Part shown: positions 1-13,789 of the stretch, piece after piece
Layout: every line of letters starts with the position of its first letter
How positions within the stretch are numbered: the stretch's first letter is position 1
Assembly: GCF_002954545.1 (NCBI RefSeq)
Contig: NZ_MSCH01000003.1
Coordinates: forward strand, 1,328,824-1,392,823
DNA from: Psychrosphaera saromensis
GTDB taxonomy: Bacteria > Pseudomonadota > Gammaproteobacteria > Enterobacterales > Alteromonadaceae
Length of the DNA stretch: 64,000 bases
Direction of reading: 5' to 3'
The notes under the pieces: model-generated
Database searches by the model: none
The model's input: the letters and a program-made list of their open reading frames with translations, nothing else
What the model was told of the DNA's origin: nothing
Translations under genes and position numbers: made by a program

Positions 1-1
1 T

Positions 2-1291
2 ACTACTGGTTTTGTGGAGACCTTAGTAGATGGTGTGATGTCTATTACGGTATTAATTATGATGGCGTTATATTCATTAAAGTTGACTGCTATTGTTTTA
101 GGGGCAATAACTTTATATACAATAGTGCGTTTAGTTTTGTACCGTCCTTTGCACCAGGCAACAGAGGAGATGATCCAAAGCTCAGCCAAAGAGCAATCTA
201 GTTTTTTAGAAAATATCCGTGGCATGCAAACCATTAAGTTGTTTGGTAATGAATCTCAACGACAAGGTATTTGGCAAAACCGTTATGCAGAAGTGATAAA
301 TTCTGAAATTAGACTTGGCCGACTAAACATAAGTTTTGAGTCTTTTAACAAACTGTTATTTGGTCTAGAGAATGTATTTGTTATTTATTTTGCTGCACAG
401 ATGGTGATGGTTAATAGCTTAACCGTTGGTATGGTATTGGCGTTTATTGCTTATAAAGGTCAGCTAACGCAACGTTTTGCTAATTTAATTGAGCAAATTA
501 TTCAGTTTAAAATGATGCGTTTACACCTTGACCGCATTTCCGATATTGCGCTCACTAATCAAGAGGCTAATAGAGAAGGGAAAGGCGATGGTAATGGAAG
601 TCTACAACTTTCAACTGGTTCTTCAAAAGGAGCGCTAACGTTAGAAAATATATGTTTTGCTTATAGTGATGAAGATGCATCCATTTTAAACAATGTTAAC
701 TTGTCATTAAACGCAGGTGATTCTATTGCGATTACTGGCCCATCTGGTGCGGGTAAAACAACGCTAATGAAAATTATGCTTGGGCTATTACAACCAACAT
801 CTGGCAGGGTATTGCTCGATGGTAAAGACATTACTCACATTGGCTTAAAAAATTACCGTAAACAGATAGCTGCCGTTATGCAGGACGATACATTATTGGC
901 GGGGTCCATTGCTGACAATATTAGCTTTTTTGATACTCAACCTGATTTTGCAAAAATAGAGCAGAGTGCTCAGTTAGCGTCTATTCATGATGATATTGGT
1001 AAAATGACAATGGGATATAACTCTTTGGTGGGTGACATGGGCTCTAACCTTTCAGGTGGACAACTTCAGCGCGTTTTACTCGCCAGAGCTTTATATCAAT
1101 CACCAAGTATTTTATATATGGATGAAGCGACAAGCCATTTAGACACAGATAATGAAGCTAAAATTAGTGAGCAAATCCAGCACTTATCAATGACGCGTAT
1201 TATGATTGCACACAGGAAAGAAACGATTAATATGGCCAATAAAGTTTATCAGTTACTTGATGGCCAGTTGACCGAACTCAATAAGCTTTAA
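2..1291 (+). CDS. Peptidase-containing ABC transporter (PCAT), 3' part only, copy 1
   Basis: The reading frame is open from base 2, so the gene enters from the left edge and lacks its N-terminal C39 peptidase domain and first membrane helices in this window. What is present is the end of the transmembrane domain and a complete ATPase domain. The ATPase has Walker A GPSGAGKTT, signature LSGGQ, Walker B ILYMDEAT and an H-loop IAHR. It is almost identical to residues about 307-713 of the full copy at 8920. The main difference is the linker before the ATPase, which is longer here (after EANREG). PCATs cleave double-glycine leaders in the cytoplasm and export the mature peptide across the inner membrane, so the substrates are probably the peptides at 4533-7722. 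A broken CPBP protease gene follows 50 bases downstream. Confidence 0.93.
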   Translation, partial: TTGFVETLVDGVMSITVLIMMALYSLKLTAIVLGAITLYTIVRLVLYRPLHQATEEMIQSSAKEQSSFLENIRGMQTIKLFGNESQRQGIWQNRYAEVINSEIRLGRLNISFESFNKLLFGLENVFVIYFAAQMVMVNSLTVGMVLAFIAYKGQLTQRFANLIEQIIQFKMMRLHLDRISDIALTNQEANREGKGDGNGSLQLSTGSSKGALTLENICFAYSDEDASILNNVNLSLNAGDSIAITGPSGAGKTTLMKIMLGLLQPTSGRVLLDGKDITHIGLKNYRKQIAAVMQDDTLLAGSIADNISFFDTQPDFAKIEQSAQLASIHDDIGKMTMGYNSLVGDMGSNLSGGQLQRVLLARALYQSPSILYMDEATSHLDTDNEAKISEQIQHLSMTRIMIAHRKETINMANKVYQLLDGQLTELNKL

Positions 1292-1341: not shown

Positions 1342-2066
1342 ATGGATAACTTGAATCAAGAAAAGGACGTGTTTTCACTTTCAGGATCTTTATTATGGTG
1401 CTTTACATTAACTGTTGGGCTTTAGATCATAATTAGTTTTGTATTTACAGTCGGTTTGAGTATAAATGGTGTTGCTTCTGATGATATAGAAGCACAGTTT
1501 TTAAAGCCAGATATCATGTTTTATACGTCCTTAATTGCAATGCTCTTATCTATTCCTTTAGTAAAATCTGCTTCCAAACAAGTTACTTATACTCACTTAG
1601 CTAGCTTTATAAAAATGATGCCAATTAAAAAAACAGACGTTAATAAAGCCAATTTGTAATTGGCTTTGTGTATTACCTTTTTAAATATTTAACCGTTAAG
1701 TTATTAGGTATTGGAACCCCGCAATACATGTTGGATGTAAAATCACAGGTTAGTACTAATTGGGATTTAATTTTACTTGTTATAGCTGTTTGTATTATTG
1801 CGCCGATTGTTGAAGAGGTGATTTTTAGAGGTGTTATTTTTTCAAGACTTCAAAACAGTAGAGTTGGTTCACCTGATGCTATTGTCTACACTAGTATTTT
1901 TTTTTGTATTTTACATGTACATTATGAGTTAATTATCATGAGATATACACTTTTGATAGGAGTGATGTTGGGCTTTATTAGTTTGAAAACCAGCAATATT
2001 TGGTACTGCATAATCTTGCATATGATGGTGAATGTATTTTCTACGATTGAGTTATTTGCGTTTTAG
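1342..2066 (+). pseudogene. CPBP (Abi/CAAX-type) intramembrane protease, broken by a stop and a frameshift
   Basis: This is a decayed relative of the intact gene at 7768. It begins at an ATG at 1342 (MDNLNQEKDVFS) with an AAAAAGGAAA ribosome-binding region. An in-frame TAG interrupts it at 1423-1425. The same frame then resumes to a TAA at 1657, and the C-terminal half continues in another frame from about 1668. That half still carries the family motifs EEVIFRG, the histidine of FFCILH and HMMVN. CPBP proteases of bacteriocin loci often confer self-immunity or help process peptides. This copy cannot make a full-length protein unless both lesions are bypassed. Sequencing error is a less likely alternative, because two independent lesions would be required. 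Confidence 0.82.
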
Positions 2067-2205: not shown

Positions 2206-2397
2206 ATGTTAAGAATATTTTTTATATTAGTCGTCGCTTTGGCTAGTTATACTTACTATAGAGATAATGGCGAAATAAAAATCGGTCTCATGGTAATCCT
2301 TGTGTGGTTAGTAGTATCTTTAATACATTCTTATTATGTTAAGTTTTTCCCTCGAGTAAATAAATTATCTACCCCAGAAAACAACTCTCAAATGTAA
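2206..2397 (+). CDS. Small two-helix membrane protein, possible immunity protein, copy 1
   Basis: The product is 63 residues from the ATG at 2206; a TTG further upstream (2188) is less likely because it has no better ribosome-binding site. It has a hydrophobic N-terminal segment (residues about 2-15, LRIFFILVVALASY), a short polar YYRDNGE loop, and a second hydrophobic segment (about 24-45, GLMVILVWLVVSLIHSYY). The basic tail ends in PENNSQM. It is clearly paralogous to the 57-residue protein at 4769, which lies directly after a double-glycine peptide gene. Small two-helix proteins beside such peptides are commonly immunity proteins, but no known immunity family is recognised here, so the role is inferred from context. 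A remnant of the 3' end of a third copy is at about 13210-13274. Confidence 0.65.
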   Translation: MLRIFFILVVALASYTYYRDNGEIKIGLMVILVWLVVSLIHSYYVKFFPRVNKLSTPENNSQM

Positions 2398-2427: not shown

Positions 2428-2650
2428 AACTACTTAACTCATCCCCTAGTGGCTCTTTGTTCATTTATTACCATCTTGGTTAGGCTCTCTTTTTCTAGGT
2501 CGATACCTTGCAAATGCGCTATGTCTAAAACCCTAAGTACTATATTTGCCAATACTTCACCAAAGGCATCTGTAGGTATTTCGTTTCGGTATTCTTTAAT
2601 TGCTTCACCCACTTCAGATGCAACCAGTGCTAAGACTTCTAAATGAGTTG
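2428..2650 (-). pseudogene. 5'-truncated copy of the MazG-like gene
   Basis: This stretch aligns along its length with the intact MazG-like gene at 13294-13578, including the shared downstream flank (an ACTTAACTC motif). It ends abruptly at about 2645, so roughly the first 20 codons are missing and no start codon remains. The opposite strand has a short open frame across it, but that is a shadow. The truncation point abuts the 3' remnant of a membrane protein gene (2656), which makes this the likely breakpoint of a tandem duplication. Confidence 0.75.
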
Positions 2651-3029: not shown

Positions 3030-4274
3030 ATGTCGCTATTTAGAAAGGAAGCTGTAGCTCAACAAAGTGAACGCCTAACGGGTGAGATTATACTGGCTCA
3101 GCCATTATCAATAAAATTAACGGTAGGTACGCTTGTCGCCATTACCGCTACAATTGTGTTATTTATTTTTACTGCTGAGTATTCTAGAAAAGAAACCGTT
3201 CGTGGCTTTTTAATCCCAATAAAAGGCGTGGTTAAAAGCGTAGCCACACAAGGTGGTGTGGTCGATAAGCTTTGGGTAAAAGAGGGCGATAAGGTAATAA
3301 AAGGTCAACCGCTTGTTAGTATTATTATTCAAAAGAAAAACGCCACAGGCATTGACTTAAGTGACCAGCTTATTGAGCAAGTTGAACGTCAAAAGTTAAT
3401 GCTCTCTGATGAAATAAGCCAACACAACACACTCCAATTACAAGAAGTTAAACATTTAAAACAACGTTATTTAGCATTAAAAAATGAACAAGGTGCATTA
3501 ACAAATCAGCTAACGTTAGCGGATGAAAAGTTAACCTTATTGTTGGCACAACAAAAATACTTTAATACGTTAAGTAAAAATGGCCATCTCTCCAAGTTTG
3601 AAAAAGACACTCAAGAGCAAGAGTTACTAGGCGCAAAACAAGAGAAACAAAATATCAATCGCTTGTTGATACAACAACAAAATGAACTTAGCCAAGTTAC
3701 TTTTGATATTAATAATATTCCTCAGCAATACGCCCTTAAAATAAATAGTCTTAAACGCCAAAAAAGTGAATTCTCTAGCCAAATAGCACAAATATCTAAC
3801 GGCCATAAATATACTATTACAGCGAGCCAAGGCGGAGTCGTATCTGGCATTCAAGTTTTTGAGGGCGAAAACTTAACTCAGGCAAAATCTATATTACATA
3901 TTTTGCCAGAAGACTCAGAACTGATTGCAGAACTGCTATTGCCAACTCGTTCAGCTGGATTTATTGAGGAAGGGAATAACACTCGGTTACGTTTTGATGC
4001 CTTCCCATATCAACGCTTCGGTTTTATCCAAAGCCAAATTGTACAAATAGATCAAACATTGATCACACCAAATGAAAGACAAATGCCTATTGCACTACAA
4101 GAGCCTGTTTATAGGTTAAGTGCTAAGTTGAATCAACAGCAAATCCAAGCGTTTGGCAAAGCGTTCGACTTAAAAAGCGGGATGTTATTTGACGCAGACA
4201 TCATGCTTGAGCAGCGCACATTAATAGAATGGCTGCTAGAGCCGCTATACAGCTTAAAAGGCCGAGTTGGTTAA
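3030..4274 (+). CDS. HlyD-family membrane-fusion protein of peptide exporter, copy 1
   Basis: The product is 414 residues, the usual size for membrane-fusion proteins that pair with PCATs. I chose the ATG at 3030 (MSLFRKEAVAQQ) because the alternative TTG 24 codons upstream would add an unrelated Cys-rich segment before the cytoplasmic tail. One membrane helix (about 29-48) precedes a biotinyl-lipoyl-like half domain (about 57-98, with VKEGDKVIKGQPL). A long coiled-coil hairpin (about 110-250) and the second lipoyl half with a beta-barrel region follow, ending in KGRVG. It would bridge the inner-membrane ABC transporter to an outer-membrane channel, which is not encoded in this window. It is near-identical to the copy at 5746; the differences cluster in the second half of the coiled coil and near the C-terminus. 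An 11-codon frame after the stop (4279-4314) is conserved in both copies. Confidence 0.95.
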   Translation: MSLFRKEAVAQQSERLTGEIILAQPLSIKLTVGTLVAITATIVLFIFTAEYSRKETVRGFLIPIKGVVKSVATQGGVVDKLWVKEGDKVIKGQPLVSIIIQKKNATGIDLSDQLIEQVERQKLMLSDEISQHNTLQLQEVKHLKQRYLALKNEQGALTNQLTLADEKLTLLLAQQKYFNTLSKNGHLSKFEKDTQEQELLGAKQEKQNINRLLIQQQNELSQVTFDINNIPQQYALKINSLKRQKSEFSSQIAQISNGHKYTITASQGGVVSGIQVFEGENLTQAKSILHILPEDSELIAELLLPTRSAGFIEEGNNTRLRFDAFPYQRFGFIQSQIVQIDQTLITPNERQMPIALQEPVYRLSAKLNQQQIQAFGKAFDLKSGMLFDADIMLEQRTLIEWLLEPLYSLKGRVG

Positions 4275-4375
4275 AGCTATGGCTAAACTAAAATGGGTGT
4301 TTGGTAATAAGTAGAGATAAGAATTTAAAAGAATTTTCTAACTAAGGGATTAGTGTTAATAACTAGACCTTAACG

Positions 4376-4532
4376 GAAAATAGAGCGGCTAGCTTTAGTC
4401 AACTTTGAACAGAACAACTAAAGTCAGCCAAATTAACCGCTAACTTAAATAATTAAGCTAGCAAATTAACAATCCGACAAATCTTAAGCCTGGATACAAG
4501 CAAAGAAATGTCAGAAACATGGAGTATATATT
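4376..4532 (+). promoter_or_regulatory. Conserved 5' cassette upstream of precursor peptide 1, with two inverted repeats
   Basis: This untranslated stretch recurs almost unchanged before all three precursor genes (see 7107 and 7435). The first inverted repeat pairs GGCTAGCTTTAGT at 4387-4399 with ACTAAAGTCAGCC at 4417-4429. A second, weaker pair (TCCGACA and TGTCAGA) lies immediately before the ribosome-binding GGAG at 4521. Neither hairpin is followed by a T run, so they look more like regulatory RNA structure or recombination homology than terminators. The function is inferred only. Confidence 0.6.
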
Positions 4533-4697
4533 ATGCGTGAATTAAACGTAAATGAAATTGAACAAGTTAATGGTGGATTCATTGTGAGTGCAATTAAGGC
4601 TATTGTGAAGTCTTTTAGTTCGAAAAACACAGCACGTGCTATTACAGTTTTGGAGACTACTGAAACTTTAGTCTCTGACACTGAGACTGCTAAATAG
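4533..4697 (+). CDS. Double-glycine leader precursor peptide 1 (class II bacteriocin/microcin-like)
   Basis: The precursor has 54 residues, starting at an ATG placed 8 bases after GGAG. The leader MRELNVNEIEQVNGG fits the double-glycine leaders cut by C39 peptidases and resembles the N-terminus of the lactobin/cerein-type class IIb bacteriocin family. Cleavage after GG would release a 39-residue peptide that begins FIVSAIKAIVKSF. Its N-terminal half is amphipathic and cationic, and its C-terminal half is Thr/Glu-rich, ending in DTETAK. There is no cysteine and no modification enzyme nearby, so an unmodified peptide is expected. It lies between the first hlyD and a two-helix membrane protein. 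Whether it kills, signals or is inert is unknown. Confidence 0.85.
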   Translation: MRELNVNEIEQVNGGFIVSAIKAIVKSFSSKNTARAITVLETTETLVSDTETAK

Positions 4698-4738
4698 CAA
4701 ATAGCAAATAGCAAATAGCAAATAGCTATTTGCTATTT
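4693..4738. repeat. 7-bp tandem repeat running into a perfect 26-bp palindrome at the 3' end of peptide 1
   Basis: The unit CAAATAG (or a rotation of it) repeats about five times from the stop codon of peptide 1. The last copies then form the left arm of a perfect palindrome at 4713-4738, with arm AAATAGCAAATAG. The stop codon of the precursor lies inside the first unit, so changes in repeat number would not alter the peptide. The palindrome could form a hairpin between the peptide gene and the putative immunity gene. No T run follows, so rho-independent termination is not clearly supported. Confidence 0.8.
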
Positions 4739-4768
4739 CAACTTCAATTCTAATTTTAAGTGAAAAAG

Positions 4769-4942
4769 ATGTTAAAAATTTTTTTTATACTAGTAGTATC
4801 TTTGACTAGCTATACCTACTATAGGGATAATAAAGAAGTAGATGTCGGTCTCATGGTAATCCTTGTTTGGCTACTGTTGTCTTTATTACATTCTTTTTAT
4901 TTGAAATTGTTATCTTTAAAAAGAAAAAAATATGACCGTTAG
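4769..4942 (+). CDS. Small two-helix membrane protein, possible immunity protein for peptide 1, copy 2
   Basis: The product is 57 residues from the ATG at 4769; a GTG three codons upstream is possible. It has the same plan as the protein at 2206: a hydrophobic segment at residues about 3-15 (KIFFILVVSLTSY), the loop YYRDNKEVD, a second hydrophobic segment at about 24-45, and a lysine-rich tail ending KKYDR. It begins 71 bases after the stop of precursor peptide 1 on the same strand, the classic place for a dedicated immunity gene. Its sequence matches no family I recognise, so immunity is inferred from position, size and topology. Confidence 0.68.
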   Translation: MLKIFFILVVSLTSYTYYRDNKEVDVGLMVILVWLLLSLLHSFYLKLLSLKRKKYDR

Positions 4943-5046
4943 TATTTTTGTGAAAAATGCAGCGAAGCTAACTTAAACTACTATTCCAATTATGTGTTCT
5001 TTAATGTACACCGGTTTATATATGTAATCACAAATTCAAAAACTAA

Positions 5047-5141
5047 TTAACTTTTCATCCTTAAAATCAGTTCCATTGATCCTGCAAGCTGAAGTTGTTA
5101 AATGTGGTTTGGCTTCCATGGCTATGGTGGCGAGTTTTATA
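5047..5141 (+). pseudogene. Remnant of a PCAT gene (C39 peptidase N-terminus)
   Basis: The stretch matches codons about 10-42 of the intact PCAT at 8920. It keeps the catalytic-cysteine context (KCGLASMAMVASF, here with K for E) and the preceding LILQAEVV. Similarity ends at about 5141, where the sequence joins a different gene fragment. This shows that a PCAT gene once followed peptide 1 and its neighbour in this unit. Confidence 0.8.
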
Positions 5142-5290
5142 GTTTTAAAAAATTAAATATAAATGGTCATGTCATTCAAGACGTTAGCTTTATAAAGGGT
5201 GAGAAAAATATTTTAGGGACTAATATTTTGTCAAAATTTGATTTCCCTAATCGTCAAATGTACCTGAAATCAAGGAATGAAAATGAATAA
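5142..5290 (+). pseudogene. C-terminal fragment of a retropepsin-like aspartic protease
   Basis: The open frame after the PCAT remnant encodes LNINGHVIQDVSFIKGEKN followed by ILGTNILSKFDFPNRQMYLK. This pattern (LG-N-L--FDF----MYLK) is typical of the last strands of small bacterial retropepsin-like proteases of the Asp_protease_2 type. The catalytic DTG half is absent, so the fragment should be inactive. It stays in frame with the PCAT remnant from a GTG/ATG near 5102, so a 62-residue fusion could in principle be translated. The assignment rests on motif resemblance only. Confidence 0.5.
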
Positions 5291-5465
5291 ATATATCTTT
5301 ATTACCTGCATTATCTTTTTGAGTGCCTGTACATCTCAATCTGGACAACGAGGGAATAGTTCTCTTGATTGCAAAAGAGTGGAGGAGCAATGTAGATTCT
5401 CAGGATATTATGATGAGTGGTATACAACCAATGGTGATTTAGGATGTAATTGCGTTGACTTGTAG
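5283..5465 (+). CDS. Small cysteine-rich lipoprotein
   Basis: The product is 60 residues from the ATG at 5283, preceded by AAGG at a good spacing; an in-frame ATG two codons upstream (5277) is also possible. A signal peptide with lipobox LSAC ends at about residue 15. The exported part (CTSQSGQRGNSSLDCKR onward) has five cysteines, counting the lipid-anchored one, which could form disulfides in the periplasm. The gene overlaps the end of the retropepsin fragment by a few bases. No family is recognised. It may be an outer-membrane-facing accessory or immunity lipoprotein of the peptide locus, but that is only a guess from position. Confidence 0.6.
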   Translation: MNKYIFITCIIFLSACTSQSGQRGNSSLDCKRVEEQCRFSGYYDEWYTTNGDLGCNCVDL

Positions 5466-5488
5466 CTAATAGTTTATTTTAAGTGTGG

Positions 5489-5605
5489 TTATGTAAAAAT
5501 ACACACGTTTAAATTAAGGTTTACATGAAAATATAAGAATGGTATTAATATCACCAATACTAGTTTTTGCCTTGACGTATCAGCTTAGTATGTAACTAAA
5601 TCTTT
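5489..5605 (+). pseudogene. Second degenerate copy of the small secreted peptide gene and upstream site
   Basis: The segment reads GTTATGTAAAAATACACAC and then a TTAAGGTTTACATG start context aligned with that of the gene at 12767. A stop follows after three codons (MKI*). The downstream text TTAATATCACCAATACTAG still matches the signal-peptide codons of the intact gene. It lies about 140 bases upstream of the second hlyD, as the first remnant does before the first hlyD. Confidence 0.55.
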
Positions 5606-5745
5606 GATTTTATTATGTTTTTATAAAATTAACAAATGCAATATCATCTAGTGTAAATTAATAAAAATTTTTATTGACGCAACTTATTTTGTGTGGAAAT
5701 ATTCCAACATTAAGTTGTTGCACGTTGTTATTAATCGGAATTAAT

Positions 5746-6990
5746 ATGTCGCTATTTAGAAAGGAAGCTGTAGCTCAACAAAGTGAACGCCTAACGGGTG
5801 AGATTATACTGGCTCAGCCATTATCAATAAAATTAACGGTAGGTACGCTTGTCGCCATTACCGCTACAATTGTGTTATTTATTTTTACTGCTGAGTATTC
5901 TAGAAAAGAAACCGTTCGTGGCTTTTTAATCCCAATAAAAGGCGTGGTTAAAAGCGTAGCCACACAAGGTGGTGTGGTCGATAAGCTTTGGGTAAAAGAG
6001 GGCGATAAGGTAATAAAAGGTCAACCGCTTGTTAGTATTATTATTCAAAAGAAAAACGCCACAGGCATTGACTTAAGTGACCAGCTTATTGAGCAAGTTG
6101 AACGTCAAAAGTTAATGCTCTCTGATGAAATAAGCCAACACAACACACTCCAATTACAAGAAGTTAAACATTTAAAACAACGTTATTTAGCATTAAAAAA
6201 TGAACAAGGTGCATTAACAAATCAGCTAACGTTAGCGGATGAAAAGTTAACCTTATTGTTGGCACAACAAAAATACTTTAATACGTTAAGTAAAAATGGC
6301 CATCTCTCCAAGTTTGAAAAAGACACTCAAGAGCAAGAGTTACTAGGCGCAAAACAAGAGAAACAAAATATAAATCGTTTGTTAATACAACAACAAAATG
6401 AACTGACTCAAGTTCGTTTTAATATTGAAAATATTCCTCAGCAATATGCACTTAAAATCAATAATCTTAAACGCCAACAAAGTGAATTTTCCAGCCAGAT
6501 AGCCCAAATATCTAACGGCCATAAATATACGATTACCGCGAGCCAAGGCGGAGTTGTGTCTGGTATTCAAGTGTTTGAAGGTGAAAACTTAACTCAAGCC
6601 AAATCCATATTACATATTTTGCCAGAAGACTCAGAACTGATTGCAGAACTGCTATTGCCAACTCGTTCAGCTGGATTTATTGAGGAAGGGAATAACACTC
6701 GGTTACGTTTTGATGCCTTCCCATATCAACGCTTCGGTTTTATCCAAAGCCAAATTGTACAAATAGACCAAACTCTGATCACACCAAATGAAAGACAAAT
6801 GCCTATTGCACTACAAGAGCCAGTTTATAGATTAAGAGCCAAGTTGAACCAACAGCAAATACAAGCTTTTGGCAAAGAGTTCGACTTAAAAAGCGGGATG
6901 TTATTTGACGCAGACATCATGCTTGAGCAGCGCACATTAATAGAATGGCTGCTAGAGCCGCTATACAGCTTAAAAGGCCGAGTTGGTTAA
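5746..6990 (+). CDS. HlyD-family membrane-fusion protein of peptide exporter, copy 2
   Basis: The product is 414 residues with the same plan as copy 1: one N-terminal helix at about 29-48, lipoyl half domain, long coiled coil, then second lipoyl half and barrel. DNA identity with 3030-4274 is essentially complete over roughly the first 600 bases. It is lower in a block at about 6372-6600, where the coiled coil carries LTQVRFNIEN instead of LSQVTFDINN, and high again to the end except for a few changes near 6830-6880. The patchy pattern suggests gene conversion or mosaic recombination. It is followed by two precursor peptide genes on the same strand. With the PCAT at 8920 it would form the inner-membrane export complex. 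Confidence 0.95.
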   Translation: MSLFRKEAVAQQSERLTGEIILAQPLSIKLTVGTLVAITATIVLFIFTAEYSRKETVRGFLIPIKGVVKSVATQGGVVDKLWVKEGDKVIKGQPLVSIIIQKKNATGIDLSDQLIEQVERQKLMLSDEISQHNTLQLQEVKHLKQRYLALKNEQGALTNQLTLADEKLTLLLAQQKYFNTLSKNGHLSKFEKDTQEQELLGAKQEKQNINRLLIQQQNELTQVRFNIENIPQQYALKINNLKRQQSEFSSQIAQISNGHKYTITASQGGVVSGIQVFEGENLTQAKSILHILPEDSELIAELLLPTRSAGFIEEGNNTRLRFDAFPYQRFGFIQSQIVQIDQTLITPNERQMPIALQEPVYRLRAKLNQQQIQAFGKEFDLKSGMLFDADIMLEQRTLIEWLLEPLYSLKGRVG

Positions 6991-7106
6991 AGCTATGGCT
7001 AAACTAAAATGGGTGTTTGGTAATAAGTAGCGATAAGAATTTAAAAGAATTTTCTAACTAAGGACTTTCTAATCAGAAGATTAGTGTTAATAACTAGATC
7101 TTGAAT

Positions 7107-7254
7107 GGAAAATAGGGCGGCTAGCTTTAGTCAACTTTGAACAGAACAACTAAAGCCAGCCAAATTAACCGCTAACTTAAATAATTAAGTTAGCGAATTA
7201 ATTCCGACAAACATCTTAATGGTAAGAGAATGTCGGAAACATGGAGTATAGATT
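7107..7254 (+). promoter_or_regulatory. Conserved 5' cassette upstream of precursor peptide 2
   Basis: This is the second copy of the untranslated cassette. Its inverted repeat is GGCTAGCTTTAGT at 7119-7131 paired with ACTAAAGCCAGCC at 7149-7161. The promoter-proximal pair CCGACA and TGTCGG flanks a spacer that differs from the other copies. The stem is kept while the loop varies, which hints at selection for RNA or DNA structure next to the ribosome-binding GGAG. Confidence 0.6.
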
Positions 7255-7398
7255 ATGCGTGAATTAAACGTCAATGAAATAGAGCAAGTTAATGGTGGTT
7301 CATTTAATGCGCCAGAGCCTGAATATATTTGGGTTCGCGACCCTCTTACTGGTGGTTACAAAAAAATGCAAGTATCACCATATATTTTTGGCCAATAA
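7255..7398 (+). CDS. Double-glycine leader precursor peptide 2
   Basis: The precursor has 47 residues with the identical leader MRELNVNEIEQVNGG, placed after GGAG. Cleavage after GG would release a 32-residue peptide that begins SFNAPEPEYIWVRD and contains PLTGGYKK, ending in SPYIFGQ. It is aromatic-rich, nearly neutral and cysteine-free, and has no visible similarity to the mature parts of peptides 1 and 3. It lies 264 bases after the second hlyD and just upstream of peptide 3. The two may act as a pair, as in two-peptide bacteriocins, but nothing in the sequence proves this. Confidence 0.83.
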   Translation: MRELNVNEIEQVNGGSFNAPEPEYIWVRDPLTGGYKKMQVSPYIFGQ

Positions 7399-7434
7399 GA
7401 ATTCTCATTCTACTTTTATAACAAAGTAAAATGA

Positions 7435-7578
7435 AAATAGAGCGGCTAGCTTTAGTCAACTTTGAACAGAACAACTAAAGCCAGCCAAATTAACCGCTAA
7501 CTTAAATAATTAAGCTAGCAAATTAACAATCCGGCAACTTTCGTATAAAAGTAATGTCGGAAACATGGAGTATATATT
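7435..7578 (+). promoter_or_regulatory. Conserved 5' cassette upstream of precursor peptide 3
   Basis: This is the third copy of the cassette, here between two adjacent precursor genes. The inverted repeat is GGCTAGCTTTAGT at 7444-7456 with ACTAAAGCCAGCC at 7474-7486. The second stem pairs CCGGCA with TGTCGG, with one wobble. Placing the cassette between two genes on one strand suggests that peptide and cassette move or duplicate as one module. Confidence 0.6.
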
Positions 7579-7722
7579 ATGCGTGAATTAAACGTAAATG
7601 AAATAGAGCAAGTTAATGGTGGTATATCGTGGACTGGAGCGGCAAGAATGGCAGTAAAATACTTATCTCGTATGCCATCTTTTAGAGGGCCTAGTAGATA
7701 TAATGGAGAATGGAATGGTTAA
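7579..7722 (+). CDS. Double-glycine leader precursor peptide 3
   Basis: The precursor has 47 residues with the same MRELNVNEIEQVNGG leader and ribosome-binding context as peptides 1 and 2. The predicted mature part is 32 residues, starting ISWTGAARMAVKYLSRM and ending GPSRYNGEWNG. It is clearly cationic (four Arg, one Lys and one Glu), with a possible amphipathic helix at its start, which fits a membrane-active antimicrobial peptide. There is no cysteine. A CPBP protease gene starts 45 bases downstream and is the best candidate for its immunity or processing partner. Confidence 0.84.
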   Translation: MRELNVNEIEQVNGGISWTGAARMAVKYLSRMPSFRGPSRYNGEWNG

Positions 7723-7767
7723 GCGACACCTAATAAAGTATATAAACTAAATAGGAGTTTTTTGAGC

Positions 7768-8535
7768 ATGGATGCTCTCATCTATTATAAAAGTGAAAGT
7801 ATGGAAGAAGTATTTGATCAAAGAAATAAAAAAATTGGAGATGTCTTAAATACGGCGTATTGGATATTTTTCCTATCAATAGTTTTACCTTTTTTTTCAG
7901 CATTTTTTATTTTAATTTCAGGGGTGGGCTCTCTGTTTCTGAGCGATGTGTCTACGTTAGAACATATAGAGTCTAATCCATTCTTTAATTTCTTAAGTAC
8001 AATTATGTGGACAATATTAATTATTCCATTAATTAAATACTCTCTAGACGTTAAAAGCTACTCGGACTGTATAAGAAAATTAGCATTTAAGTCTATCTCG
8101 ATTTATCCATTACTGGGAAGTATTCTAGTGATGTTTGTATTTTCATTTTTTGAGTCGTTATTTTTTAAGTTTGAAATATTAGAAGTACCGAGTTTTTTAC
8201 TCGAGCTTGAGTATCAAACAGATTCAATATTAGAAGTCGTGATGTTATTTATAATTGTTGGTGTAGTGGGTCCTTTTATCGAAGAAATTATATTTAGAGG
8301 AATAGCTTATGAAAGATTAAAATACAGTACGTTAGGTCCGGCAGGAGCAGTTATTATGCCAAGTATTATTTTTACATTTATACACACTCAATATGAGCAG
8401 CCTATCCTTTTAGCTTTAATTTTTGTTTCATCGTGTATTTTTGGATGGCTTCGTTATTTTACTGGTAATTTATGGTATCCGATAATTGGACATGTTGCTA
8501 TGAATGTTCTTTCGTTATCAACTGGGCTTTTATGA
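7768..8535 (+). CDS. CPBP family intramembrane metalloprotease (Abi/CAAX-type)
   Basis: The product is 255 residues from the ATG at 7768, which sits 10 bases after AGGAG; a TTG two codons earlier is too close to that site. It has several membrane helices, and the family's catalytic motifs lie in the C-terminal half: EEIIFRG (Glu172, Glu173, Arg177), FTFIH (Phe202, His206) and HVAMN (His242, Asn246). CPBP proteins resemble CAAX prenyl endopeptidases and are common in bacteriocin loci, where some give self-immunity. The gene follows precursor peptide 3 closely. All key residues are present, unlike in the broken copy at 1342. Confidence 0.92.
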   Translation: MDALIYYKSESMEEVFDQRNKKIGDVLNTAYWIFFLSIVLPFFSAFFILISGVGSLFLSDVSTLEHIESNPFFNFLSTIMWTILIIPLIKYSLDVKSYSDCIRKLAFKSISIYPLLGSILVMFVFSFFESLFFKFEILEVPSFLLELEYQTDSILEVVMLFIIVGVVGPFIEEIIFRGIAYERLKYSTLGPAGAVIMPSIIFTFIHTQYEQPILLALIFVSSCIFGWLRYFTGNLWYPIIGHVAMNVLSLSTGLL

Positions 8536-8565
8536 CTATAATTATTAGTTACATTTATTCTCTAA

Positions 8566-8673
8566 GCTGAATGTGGTTTGGTTTCTATGGAGGAGATGGC
8601 TAGTTTTTTTAGATATCAGCTTAATATTAGGGTTACCAAAGAAATATATGAACTGACCAAAGTTGTTAGTTAG
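8566..8673 (+). pseudogene. Second remnant of a PCAT gene (around the catalytic cysteine)
   Basis: The frame AECGLVSMEEMASFF then RYQLNI matches residues 28-48 of the intact PCAT (AECGLASMAMVASFYGHQLDM). It continues as unrelated sequence to a TAG at 8671. It lies immediately after the intact CPBP gene and about 250 bases before the intact PCAT. A PCAT copy has therefore been lost here too, and the intact one belongs to the next repeat or was inserted beside it. Confidence 0.7.
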
Positions 8674-8697
8674 TGATTTATTTTTTTAGCAGGTAAG

Positions 8698-8831
8698 ATG
8701 AAAAACATACTCTTTATCACAATGTATTTATTTTTTGTGATTTTGAACGCTTACTCTCGGTTTCTTTTGTTGGGATTTTAGCAAGCGCTGTGTTTTCTCA
8801 CACAATGCAATATAACGCAGCGGACTTATAA
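8698..8831 (+). pseudogene. Short membrane-like frame, apparently frameshifted
   Basis: An ATG after AGGTAAG opens a 27-codon frame with a signal-like start (MKNILFITMYLFFVILNAYS). It closes at 8779, and a second hydrophobic stretch (VSFVGILASAVFSHTM) continues in another frame to 8831. Together they look like one small exported or membrane protein broken by a frameshift. No family is recognised, and it may be noise in a decayed spacer. Confidence 0.3.
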
Positions 8832-8919
8832 AAATAATCAGATATATTTATACAAAATAATACTTAGTTCTGTGCATAAGCAACATTTGAATACTCGACC
8901 AATTTTAAAGGTGACGATC

Positions 8920-11061
8920 ATGGAAGATACAATAAATAATAGTTCATTACTTAACTTCTCATCATTAAAATCAGTTCCTTTAATCCTGCAAGCGGAAGTT
9001 GCTGAATGTGGACTTGCTTCCATGGCGATGGTGGCGAGTTTTTATGGCCACCAACTTGATATGCCTGCCATGCGGAAGCGTTTTTCTGCCAACTTAAAAG
9101 GCATGAACCTGCAGCAATTAATTGATGTGGGTGACAGTCTTGGTTTAGCAAGCCGTGCATTACAATGCCCGATAGATGACGTGCATAAATTAGCAACGCC
9201 ATGCATTTTACATTGGGATATGAATCACTTTGTGGTGCTAACTAAAGTCTCTGGTAAAGGCAATAAATCTACTTTTTCTATTAATGATCCCGCCGTAGGT
9301 AAACGTACTTTAAGTGCTGATGAATTTGGTAAACACTTTACTGGTATTTGTTTGGAGTTAACCCCCACTAATAAATTTGAAGTAAAACAAGAACAAGCTC
9401 GAATGAAGTTTACCCAGTTGTGGAGTTCAATGTCTGGATTAAAATCTGGACTGGTTAAACTGGTGGCTTTATCTCTAGTGTTACAACTTTTTGCACTGAT
9501 GTCGCCGTATTATATGCAGTGGGTAGTGGATGAAGTATTAGTCAGTTTTGATGAACCACTGTTAACTGTGTTGGCAATGGGCTTTGGTTTAATTGTTATT
9601 ATTTCTACTGTGACTAATGCGGTACGTAGTTGGTTAATATTGCGTTTATCTAGTTTGCTTAATATGCAAATGGGTGTGAATTTACTCAGACACTTATTGC
9701 GTTTGCCCATGAATTATTTTGAGTCACGCCATGTGGGAGATATTATTTCTCGTTTTGGATCCCTTGCGCAAATCCGTGAACGGATTACTACTGGTTTTGT
9801 AGAGACCTTAGTAGATGGTGTGATGTCTATTACGGTATTAATTATGATGGCGTTATATTCATTAAAACTCACCGCTATTGTTTTAGGTGCAATAACTTTA
9901 TATACAATAGTGCGTTTAGTTTTGTACCGTCCTTTGCACCAGGCAACAGAGGAGATGATCCAAAGCTCAGCCAAAGAGCAATCTAGTTTTTTAGAAAATA
10001 TCCGTGGCATGCAAACCATAAAACTGTTTGGTAATGAATCTCAGCGACAAGGTATTTGGCAAAACCGTTATGCAGAAGTGATAAATTCTGAAATTAGACT
10101 TGGCCGACTAAACATAAGTTTTGAGTCTTTTAACAAACTGTTATTTGGTCTAGAGAATGTATTTGTTATTTATTTTGCTGCGCAGATGGTGATGTTTAAT
10201 AGCTTAACTGTAGGTATGGTATTGGCGTTTATTGCTTATAAAGGTCAGCTAACGCAACGTTTTGCTAATTTAATTGAGCAAGTTATTCAGTTTAAAATGA
10301 TGCGTTTACATCTTGACCGAATTTCCGATATTGCGCTCACCAGTCAAGAGGCTAATAGAGAGGGCTCTGTACAGATTAAAAATGGTGATTCCAAAGGCGC
10401 GCTAACGTTAGAAAATATATGTTTTGCTTATAGTGATGAAGACGCAGCCATTTTAAACAAGGTTAACTTGTCATTAAACGCAGGTGATTCTATTGCGATA
10501 ACTGGCCCATCTGGTGCCGGTAAAACAACGCTAATGAAAATTATGCTTGGGCTATTACAACCAACATCCGGCAAAGTGTTGCTAGATGGTAAAGACATTA
10601 CTCACATTGGCTTAAAAAATTACCGTAAACAGATAGCTGCCGTTATGCAGGACGATACATTATTGGCGGGGTCCATTGCTGACAATATTAGTTTTTTTGA
10701 TCCTCAGCCTGATTTTGCAAAAATAGAGCAGTGTGCTCAATTAGCATCTATCCATGATGACATTGGTAAAATGACAATGGGATATAACTCTTTGGTGGGT
10801 GACATGGGCTCTAACCTTTCCGGTGGACAACTTCAGCGTATATTATTAGCCAGAGCGTTATATCAATCACCAAGTATTTTATACATGGATGAAGCGACAA
10901 GCCATTTAGACACAGATAATGAAGCTAAAATTAGTGAGCAAATCCAACACTTATCCATGACACGTATTATGATTGCACACAGACAAGAAACTATTAATAT
11001 GGCAAGCAAGGTTTACCGATTGCTAGATGGTGAATTAACCGATGTTCAGTTAACAAAGTAG
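8920..11061 (+). CDS. Peptidase-containing ABC transporter (PCAT), intact copy 2
   Basis: The product is 713 residues from the ATG at 8920, preceded by AAAGGTGA at good spacing; a GTG at 8872 lacks such a site. Residues about 18-150 are a C39 peptidase with oxyanion Gln24, catalytic Cys30 (AECGLAS), His103 (NHFVVL) and a likely Asp123 (INDPAVG). Six membrane helices span about 170-450. The ATPase has Walker A GPSGAGKTT at 529-537, LSGGQ at 633-637, Walker B ending in Asp657-Glu658, and H-loop His687. PCATs remove double-glycine leaders and export the core peptide, so the three MRELNV-leader peptides upstream are its expected substrates. It acts with an HlyD protein and an unlinked TolC-type channel. 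An 80-residue membrane protein follows. Confidence 0.97.
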   Translation: MEDTINNSSLLNFSSLKSVPLILQAEVAECGLASMAMVASFYGHQLDMPAMRKRFSANLKGMNLQQLIDVGDSLGLASRALQCPIDDVHKLATPCILHWDMNHFVVLTKVSGKGNKSTFSINDPAVGKRTLSADEFGKHFTGICLELTPTNKFEVKQEQARMKFTQLWSSMSGLKSGLVKLVALSLVLQLFALMSPYYMQWVVDEVLVSFDEPLLTVLAMGFGLIVIISTVTNAVRSWLILRLSSLLNMQMGVNLLRHLLRLPMNYFESRHVGDIISRFGSLAQIRERITTGFVETLVDGVMSITVLIMMALYSLKLTAIVLGAITLYTIVRLVLYRPLHQATEEMIQSSAKEQSSFLENIRGMQTIKLFGNESQRQGIWQNRYAEVINSEIRLGRLNISFESFNKLLFGLENVFVIYFAAQMVMFNSLTVGMVLAFIAYKGQLTQRFANLIEQVIQFKMMRLHLDRISDIALTSQEANREGSVQIKNGDSKGALTLENICFAYSDEDAAILNKVNLSLNAGDSIAITGPSGAGKTTLMKIMLGLLQPTSGKVLLDGKDITHIGLKNYRKQIAAVMQDDTLLAGSIADNISFFDPQPDFAKIEQCAQLASIHDDIGKMTMGYNSLVGDMGSNLSGGQLQRILLARALYQSPSILYMDEATSHLDTDNEAKISEQIQHLSMTRIMIAHRQETINMASKVYRLLDGELTDVQLTK

Positions 11062-11118: not shown

Positions 11119-11361
11119 ATGAATAAAATAGATAAAACTAAAGAACAAAAGCTAATGAAAAAAATTAGGCAGAGTTTTATTTTCTACACTGTCATTGGTT
11201 GTAGTGTTATCTCCTTCTTCTTACTAATTTCTATTTTTACTAGTTCAGGGGCATCTTTATTACCATACTTATTTATAATTATATTACTTTCATTAAATTA
11301 TCTATTTATTAAAGATTGTTTTGCCGAATTATTAACTCTATTGCAAGGCGATGAGAAATAA
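11119..11361 (+). CDS. Small two-helix membrane protein of unknown function
   Basis: The product is 80 residues. A charged N-terminus (MNKIDKTKEQKLMKKIRQ) precedes two hydrophobic segments at about 19-42 and 47-64, and a polar tail ends LQGDEK. It begins 57 bases after the PCAT stop on the same strand, so co-transcription is likely. It is not visibly related to the 57-63-residue proteins at 2206 and 4769. It may be an immunity or accessory membrane protein of the export locus, but no family is recognised. Confidence 0.6.
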   Translation: MNKIDKTKEQKLMKKIRQSFIFYTVIGCSVISFFLLISIFTSSGASLLPYLFIIILLSLNYLFIKDCFAELLTLLQGDEK

Positions 11362-11732: not shown

Positions 11733-11978
11733 ATGAAGTTTTCAGGTAAAGAACTAAGGGGATTGAGAAAAGAAGCTGGATTTACTCAAGCTCAAATAGC
11801 TAAAGAAATCGGGATCAGTCGTGAAACGGTTGTAGCGATTGAAAATGAACATCCTAAAGTCATAGATGCACTTAGCCTTGAGGTCGTTAATGCCTGGTGG
11901 TTAGCGTGCAGACAGTCTGTGTCCGAGAGCAGTCAATTATCATTTAAGGTTCAGTTGCTAAAGTTTTTTGGTATGTAG
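11733..11978 (+). CDS. XRE-family helix-turn-helix regulator
   Basis: The product is 81 residues. Residues about 4-45 form a Cro/C1-type helix-turn-helix (LRGLRKEAGFTQAQIAKEIG then ISRETVVAIE). The short C-terminal part includes NAWWLACRQSV and no recognised sensing domain. The downstream membrane protein gene starts 3 bases after its stop, so the two are translationally close. It is the only regulator in the peptide locus and is a candidate to bind the palindrome at 12731, though that link is inference. Confidence 0.88.
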   Translation: MKFSGKELRGLRKEAGFTQAQIAKEIGISRETVVAIENEHPKVIDALSLEVVNAWWLACRQSVSESSQLSFKVQLLKFFGM

Positions 11979-13293: not shown

Positions 13294-13578
13294 TTACTTA
13301 ACTCGCCCCCTAGTGCCTCTTTGTTCATTTATTGCCATCTTGGCAAGGATCTCTTTTTCTAGGTCAATACCTTGCCAATGGTCTATGTCTAAAACCCTAA
13401 GTACTATATCTGCCAGTTCTTCGCCAAAGGCGTCTGTAGGTGTTTCGTTTCGGCATTCGTTAATTGCTTCACCCACTTCCGATGCAACAAGCGCTAAGGC
13501 TTCTAAGGTGGTTTTGTTATGCCATCCCATCTTTTCAACCCATAAGTAATTTTGTTCTGCGATGTCGTTGATTTTCAT
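13294..13578 (-). CDS. MazG-like nucleotide pyrophosphohydrolase family protein
   Basis: The product is 94 residues from the ATG at 13578 (MKINDIAEQNYLW); a TTG four codons upstream is less likely. It shows the MazG-type all-alpha metal-binding pattern, with EVGEAINECRNE at about 40-50 and EELADIVLRVLD at about 58-70. Single-domain proteins of this kind hydrolyse nucleoside triphosphates to monophosphates, often as house-cleaning enzymes. It faces the peptide locus convergently. Its truncated copy at 2428 indicates that the duplicated unit ended inside this gene, so it marks the likely chromosomal border of the locus. Confidence 0.82.
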   Translation of the reverse strand: MKINDIAEQNYLWVEKMGWHNKTTLEALALVASEVGEAINECRNETPTDAFGEELADIVLRVLDIDHWQGIDLEKEILAKMAINEQRGTRGRVK

Positions 13579-13789
13579 GTGAGGTTCCAAGGTCGATTGT
13601 CGAAATTTCTTATTACACCATACCTATCAGGATAAAATAATCCAACTGCGCTAACCTTAATCTTTACCGATTTGCGTGTTAATACACGCTTTTATCAATG
13701 TGTTCATGCATTTAGACTAATTGCCGTTAATTAGGTTTTCATATACTGTAGCGGCATATACGTTACCCAATTTCAAAAAATGAAGCATT

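Follow-up and report, generated by a model that had tools for sequence, protein, structure and literature searches.

How does a bacterium come to place several unrelated small peptides behind one and the same export leader? The question is raised by a locus of Psychrosphaera saromensis lying partly within a stretch of 64,000 nucleotides (contig NZ_MSCH01000003.1, positions 1,328,824 to 1,392,823; "the window", whose first letter is position 1 below). The locus begins about 3.5 kb to the left of the window in this 3.64-Mb genome. With a probability of roughly 0.7, we interpret it as a chromosomal island of class II microcin-type bacteriocins, comprising three tandem exporter cassettes and four unmodified double-glycine (GG) precursors, each preceded by a predicted three-hairpin element. 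The organization is known from class II microcin and blp loci; the new part is the element, together with the modularity of the conserved head (element and leader) and the peptide core.

The leader MRELNVNEIEQVNGG, 15 residues ending in GG, is the same in all four precursors, and cysteine is missing from all four cores. An earlier, sequence-only reading of the window had described three precursors with an identical leader and cysteine-free, unrelated cores of 39, 32 and 32 residues (precursors 2, 3 and 4 here), which the open reading frames (ORFs) and the low identity after GG confirm; its account of the extent was incomplete, as it reported neither the element, nor the three tandem cassettes, nor precursor 1, which lies upstream of the window (G000:C6:1326875-1327144, equivalent to L005:14052-14321) and encodes 89 residues with a core of 74. 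Measured in 15-nt blocks across the four genes, DNA identity is 80-100% in the leader and 16-47% after GG, with a sharp border at the GG codons. In the whole genome the start of the leader-coding sequence is found four times, as part of a repeat some 200 nt long (4376-4576 and copies) that also spans the 5' region, so that the sharing is not due to chance; among the three copies in the window, identity in the upstream stretch ranges from 88 to 98% across 105 nt and from 89 to 95% across 75 nt.

The element itself occupies about 130 nt on the 5' side of the Shine-Dalgarno sequence of each of the four precursors, at a fixed spacing to that sequence and to the start codon. A covariance model built from 20 copies and run at E <= 1e-5 on 39 of 83 sources recovered 51 copies from 38 of the 39, representing 37 loci. 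In the alignment of these 51 copies, which is fitted to the structure, 93.4% of 1241 cells are paired as compared with 75.4 +/- 0.6% after shuffling, changes on both sides are found in 23 of 25 pairs, and covariation reaches 0.487, whereas slid controls do not exceed 0.074. When the 20 copies were aligned by sequence only and the structure was drawn on one row, 89.6% were paired (shuffled, 81.7 +/- 0.8%) and 13 pairs had double changes, while the 31 copies outside model building, aligned by the model and in some cases close to copies used for it, gave 91.4% against 71.5 +/- 0.9%. Hairpin 2 has 40 distinct 5'-arm strings in the 51 copies, gaps counted, indicating that pairing is kept and not sequence. 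Taken together, the alignments show compensatory change in the predicted hairpins. Rfam returned one sub-threshold match for window positions 4200-7800, located off the element, and no match up to E 1 for 18 loci with element copies. Identity with the attC sites of integrons was considered by eye only, and the boxes that we take to mark such sites do not fit.

To place the locus among its relatives, we collected HlyD relatives at E <= 1e-60, present in 121 of 295 genomes of the family, and the best 80 of 123 loci on database contigs, which gave 78 named loci; 91 of 114 loci were kept as distinct, leaving out 22 duplicates and one locus without HlyD. The leader pattern matched 123 frames, six of them pieces of PCAT (the ABC exporter with a C39 peptidase domain), leaving 117 precursors in 66 of the 91 loci. 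The gene order HlyD - precursor(s) - membrane or CPBP gene - PCAT recurs in many marine Gammaproteobacteria loci, including most of the closer relatives; in Shewanella and Ferrimonas the exporter genes are adjacent and the precursors follow PCAT. The sequence-only reading had made conservation of the precursor frames in close relatives its check, and this holds for leader and position but not for the cores of the window. Across the 117 precursors the leaders resemble one another while the cores are hypervariable. Core clusters number 19 and take in 44 of the 117 precursors (two clusters lie within one locus), the remaining cores being single.

Within its own genome the element is confined to the four precursor sites (E <= 1.4e-18), the next match having an E-value of 2.2. 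Across the 295 family genomes there are 54 copies in 33 genomes. In 47 of the 52 readable copies a GG frame begins at the ATG of the element (two with atypically long leaders); the other five comprise two register slips before known precursors, one GG leader a few codons further on and two with none, and the two unread copies stand before precursors in the twin locus L158. Among 394 genomes of the order the element was present in six, five of them of the same family. It stands before 46 of the 117 precursors, which belong to 34 of the 66 loci with precursors, and it also led to precursors missed by the leader pattern, for example in L115/G193 and L161/G034. Two arrays in metagenome-assembled genomes (MAGs), L121 and L158, hold five and eight precursors, of which four and five have their own element, with other genes in between. 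In Shewanella L143 and L146, too, several precursors of one locus share the same leader (e.g., MQNSKIEELTFDEIEQVNGG), but the element model had no match there up to E 1; these loci may represent a parallel solution.

Do element and core share one history? Element identity has a median of 81% within a locus (27 pairs) and 51% between loci (1248 pairs, maximum 97%). For nine core-linked pairs across loci the elements are 32-75% alike, three of these pairs having cores that are 77-84% alike. The clearest case joins a Thalassotalea and a Pseudoalteromonas, with a core identity of 78%, a common neighbour family and elements only 32% alike, a value that may be an underestimate given the low scores of both elements (about 46-54 bits); in the same Thalassotalea, two elements that are 99% alike stand before unrelated cores. 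Linked cores behind dissimilar elements suggest different histories for head and core, a separation supported statistically, as is the linkage of cores with their neighbours.

That linkage was assessed by comparing precursor pairs across loci. A neighbour family is shared by 13 of 29 core-linked pairs as opposed to 264 of 6653 pairs that are not linked, and in 300 permutations the figure of 13 was never reached (mean 1.3); with the CPBP cluster removed 11 shared pairs remain, again reached by 0 of 300. Excluded from the count were 12 of 31 neighbour clusters, which on inspection by eye were taken for exporter fragments, housekeeping genes, frames between genes or precursors that had been missed, as well as two locus pairs, L080/L081 and L118/L119. 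In the genome G189 (L089), relatives of precursor 1 and of its 107-residue membrane neighbour lie side by side, with identities of 43% for the cores and 40% for the neighbours. The adjoining small membrane and CPBP proteins are likely candidates for immunity. Two further genes of the locus lack a precursor of their own: the homologue of the orphan 80-residue protein at 11119-11361 follows, in Psychrosphaera sp. 2-982, a precursor absent here, and a cut frame of 49 residues at L005:14750 matches, at 96% identity, the beginning of an 81-residue gene behind another precursor of that species. We read such orphan membrane genes as putative antidotes kept after loss of the toxin.

From this arrangement we infer how cleavage, export, killing, immunity and exchange might proceed, and what the element may contribute. 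Each precursor would open with a fixed head made up of the three-hairpin element, the Shine-Dalgarno sequence and the 15-residue leader. The C39 domain of PCAT would cleave after GG, and the core would be exported by PCAT and HlyD together with a TolC-type channel encoded elsewhere, to act on the envelope of related bacteria, while the adjoining small membrane or CPBP protein would shield the producer. New weapons could arise when a core-plus-immunity pair is swapped behind the constant head, with heads and the 5' ends of PCAT genes as the probable sites of homologous recombination; such swaps would leave behind scraps of PCAT together with orphaned immunity genes that may still be protective.

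The exporters are shown to be under purifying selection by the ratio of nonsynonymous to synonymous change (dN/dS), estimated at 0.046-0.11 for HlyD and 0.047-0.10 for PCAT, comparisons with Psychrosphaera sp. 2-982 (G002) included. Pfam places C39, ABC and HlyD domains all in cassette 3 and bears out the HlyD, PCAT and CPBP companions named in the sequence-only reading. Elsewhere in the genome, eight PF02321 domain matches above the cut-off represent TolC-type channels, one of which may serve the locus. HlyD 2 and HlyD 3 do not differ in the first 600 nt but are only 88-89% identical just beyond, a break that we take as a sign of gene conversion.

Several observations weigh against this interpretation. 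The leader pattern finds no precursor in 25 of the 91 loci, and 71 of the 117 precursors have no recognized element; within the 35 loci that do have a copy, 23 of 69 precursors are without one, in many cases as the second member of a tight pair. The lowest element identity within a locus is 44%. No common neighbour family is found for 16 of the 29 core-linked pairs, and these pairs are not independent, the loci being related and some pairs coming from the same two loci, so that the linkage should be taken as support and not as a clean probability. No immunity gene belongs to precursor 3 alone. Core 2 has a weak relative in a Thalassotalea MAG (28% identity) with no neighbour family in common, and for cores 3 and 4 the 295 family genomes yielded no convincing homologue (best E 0.03-0.1), which is to be expected of hypervariable toxins and is not a refutation. 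Finally, the cores of the window, at 32-39 residues, are shorter than the 60-90 residues of the ten class II microcins described in the accessible part of PMC10233263, only precursor 1 falling in that range; given these three short cores, and an activity that is predicted, we do not file the locus as a class II microcin in the strict sense.

At what level, then, might the element act? Control of precursor expression at the mRNA level is most likely, on account of its fixed place at the start codon. An unlikely, though by no means negligible, alternative is that it acts as DNA, in the form of a site for cassette capture or recombination, or as antisense RNA, instead of as a 5' mRNA structure. 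Tests on the sense strand, by wobble pairs and by folding relative to the reverse complement, found no mRNA signature, which speaks against the preferred role and would suit this alternative: G.T cells (41) are not in excess of A.C cells (56), in a count uncalibrated on known RNA, and the antisense strand folds at the lower raw energy in 46 of the 51 copies, its z-score being -6.3 as compared with -5.8 for sense (p 0.075; taking a single copy from each locus, 0.027). However, the controls, 12 flavin mononucleotide (FMN) riboswitches and four tRNAs, likewise have no sense bias in z (FMN -2.45 sense, -2.96 antisense); the folding test is consequently taken as powerless, and neither test is used as strand evidence. 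A role as DNA or antisense RNA would also agree with the position of the element as the constant edge of the cassette, with copies more alike within than between loci, and with a synonymous constraint that extends into leader codons 2-8: across 31 loci Arg2 is CGT in 29 of 31 (background 0.40), and Asn5 is AAC in 22 of 26 (0.34) but Asn7 is AAT in 22 of 23 (0.66), a bias to which shared descent of the module could contribute. It is less easily reconciled with the fixed spacing to the Shine-Dalgarno sequence and start codon, with a conserved/variable border that falls at the GG codon, beyond the element and not inside it, or with the sole trace of a recombinase near the locus, an integrase fragment (no search for recombinases was made in the arrays of relatives). 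Control of the CsrA type, through GGA motifs around the Shine-Dalgarno sequence, was dropped on inspection by eye, the upstream GGA being lost in several copies with an altered hairpin 3. More doubtful is the idea that the element has a job beyond expression as a capture head for foreign core-plus-immunity pairs, an integron-like logic without a dedicated integrase; equally doubtful are its corollaries that element and leader would be host-owned while the toxin-antidote pair travels, and that the element would be a new family of structured nucleic acids.

The sequence-only reading had left it undecided whether the peptides are exported bacteriocins or signals. The recurring gene order and co-varying neighbours favour the bacteriocin class, and it appears improbable that the peptides are pheromones with receptors or processing proteases, instead of immunity proteins, as their neighbours. 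CPBP proteins can also be proteases and double-glycine export also serves pheromones, and the cores are short and without cysteine, as signals might be. Yet no kinase/regulator pair is found among the 17 proteins run through Pfam, the only candidate regulator being a small helix-turn-helix gene (11733-11978), and several unrelated cores per genome, their extreme diversity and orphan membrane genes retained without their peptides are not what signalling would predict.

It is somewhat less probable again that the locus is decaying and that duplication produced precursors 3 and 4 as by-products without a function: the remnant of PCAT, the split CPBP gene, the orphan genes and the lack of homologues for cores 3 and 4 fit decay, but exporter dN/dS values of 0.05-0.11 do not, nor does the presence of element, Shine-Dalgarno sequence, start codon and leader for each precursor. 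Most improbable is that the peptides are ribosomally synthesized and post-translationally modified peptides (RiPPs) with a tailoring enzyme elsewhere in the genome. In favour of this, the best NCBIfam match of the exporter is to an NHLP-type model, although below its cut-off (501.6 of 853.3 bits). Against it, the four cores lack cysteine, the leader is of the short microcin type and, as the sequence-only reading had noted, no modification enzyme is seen in the ORFs of the locus or among the 17 proteins run through Pfam, the remaining genome not having been searched for tailoring enzymes.

How far is such a locus already known? In the accessible part of PMC10233263, a class II microcin combines a GG leader, a PCAT with C39 domain, a membrane-fusion protein, a separate outer-membrane channel and a small membrane protein, and the present locus has the 15-residue GG leader four times, adjacent PCAT and HlyD, and a TolC-type channel in the genome. 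As far as the sources consulted in part describe it, microcin V (CvaC/Cvi/CvaB/CvaA/TolC) is alike in leader type, PCAT, fusion protein, separate channel and adjoining membrane protein; our locus differs in its marine Alteromonadales host, its several precursors, the CPBP neighbours and the three-hairpin element. The blp locus of Streptococcus pneumoniae resembles it in a common exporter, several double-glycine peptides and mixed immunity genes, which outnumber the bacteriocins and combine small membrane and CAAX (CPBP) proteins variably (PMC4860687, in part); here the host is Gram-negative, the exporter genes are duplicated per cassette and no quorum-sensing genes were seen, and no such head element is described in the available part of that paper. 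In a Gram-negative, Xylella fastidiosa has three adjacent MccV-like genes with export genes (PMC10233263, same part), set beside our locus by description for its adjacent double-glycine precursors. RiPP-like matches are reported for Pseudoalteromonas in the accessible part of PMC10456417, on marine fish; the available parts of PMC11278639, also on marine fish, and of Cole et al. (PMC9746304) hold, respectively, nothing relevant and no coverage of these marine families. Our literature search, with most subscription journals outside its reach, found no title or opening of an abstract that describes such a locus. The earlier view of an isolated, undescribed system therefore needs qualification: precursor 1 passes the NCBIfam model TIGR03949 (class IIb bacteriocins, lactobin A/cerein 7B family), a match mostly to the leader, at 23.1 bits (cut-off 21.5; precursors 2-4, 17.5, 14.7 and 17.5), and the organization is that of class II microcins and blp, while the covarying element is unusual. 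Precursor 1 does not reach the MccV profile (12.1 of 27 bits), the core C-termini are not of the Gly/Ser-rich kind found in siderophore (class IIb) microcins, and no siderophore-attachment genes were seen on reading the ORFs of the locus.

Two-peptide bacteriocins were also considered. Precursors 3 and 4 were rejected as such a (class IIb) pair on account of their separate elements and a gap of 180 nt. Among the relatives there are 20 tight precursor pairs no more than 27 nt apart (e.g., L080, L082, L091, L099, L104, L107, L126, L127, L148), and a related first peptide occurs in four loci (L082, L126, L148, L154), in three of them with a second peptide directly behind, suggesting two-peptide bacteriocins in Gram-negatives. 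Two Pseudoalteromonas strains carry the same polar core of 33 residues (VLSNTTVNEG...) after PCAT (L118:14529-14675, L119:14274-14420).

The locus as a whole contains three HlyD genes, two intact PCATs, one PCAT remnant and the four precursors (Table 1). Cassette 1 runs HlyD - precursor 1 - membrane genes - PCAT - split CPBP - membrane gene, cassette 2 HlyD - precursor 2 - membrane gene - PCAT scrap, and cassette 3 HlyD - precursor 3 - precursor 4 - CPBP - PCAT - membrane gene.

Table 1. Features of the locus (positions in the window, except those prefixed L005).
Feature	Position	Strand	Evidence or remark
HlyD 1 (cassette 1)	L005:12542-13786 (outside window, upstream)		further HlyD copy
PCAT of cassette 1	complete L005:15135-17291; 3' part 1..1291	+	ORF, tblastn
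Orphan CPBP gene, two frames, likely frameshifted	1456..2066	+	ORFs; 3' piece matches relatives
Orphan small membrane protein	2206..2397	+	70% over 50 aa to protein at 4760-4942
MazG-like fragment	2431..2642	.	89% repeat of 13295-13506, right end of locus
HlyD of cassette 2	3030..4274	+	Pfam HlyD_3; 98% aa identity to HlyD 3
Three-hairpin element, copy 2	4384..4535	+	118.7 bits
Precursor 2, 54 aa, core FIVSAIKAIVKSF...	4533..4697	+	ORF
Small membrane protein, candidate immunity of precursor 2	4760..4942	+	one hydrophobic segment by hydropathy count
Remnant of PCAT 5' end, cassette joint	5043..5138	+	DNA repeat, tblastn
Small Cys-containing lipoprotein-like ORF 5' of HlyD 3	5277..5465	+	lipobox read from sequence
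HlyD of cassette 3	5746..6990	+	Pfam HlyD_3, 49.1 bits
Three-hairpin element, copy 3	7116..7257	+	111.9 bits
Precursor 3, 47 aa, core SFNAPEPEYIW...	7255..7398	+	ORF
Three-hairpin element, copy 4	7441..7581	+	126.5 bits
Precursor 4, 47 aa, core ISWTGAARMAV...	7579..7722	+	ORF
CPBP (Rce1-like) membrane protein, candidate immunity	7768..8535	+	Pfam Rce1-like, 71.2 bits (cut-off 22.4)
PCAT of cassette 3, C39 peptidase and ABC exporter	8920..11061	+	Peptidase_C39 104.7 bits, ABC_membrane, ABC_tran
Orphan 80-aa membrane protein	11119..11361	+	87.5% homologue in Psychrosphaera sp. 2-982

Repeats run through the island. Window positions 1-300 are a 97% DNA repeat of 9786-10085, and the MazG-like fragment, whose counterpart at 13294-13587 stays under the Pfam cut-off for MazG (18.9 of 22 bits), is read as a scar of tandem growth. 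A PCAT remnant comparable to that at the cassette joint is present in Psychrosphaera sp. 2-982 (L106:12266-12418), and the lipoprotein-like ORF has a 76% match upstream of HlyD in this sister species (L042). The 3' piece of the split CPBP gene is 49-52% identical to CPBP genes of the precursor loci L073 and L192; in the intact CPBP protein EExxxR, FxxxH and HxxxN, presumably the motifs of the family, are readable. To the left of the locus, a tRNA-Phe/Thr/Phe cluster is followed by the integrase fragment (L005:10063-11760; Phage_integrase, 58.1 bits), together a likely insertion point of the island. A plasmid origin was rejected: 232 of 72,556 plasmid records contain a HlyD relative, all below 60% identity, so that there is no close plasmid copy.

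Judged from genome sequences, marine Gammaproteobacteria may hold a large reservoir, apparently not yet described, of peptides that are likely to be antibacterial and unmodified, for which the element offers a handle, at the DNA or RNA level, for finding precursors whose peptides cannot be aligned. This one genome suggests how toxin-antidote pairs may be exchanged while the export tag stays the same. Should the element indeed regulate or capture cassettes, the origin of bacteriocin diversity would become directly testable.

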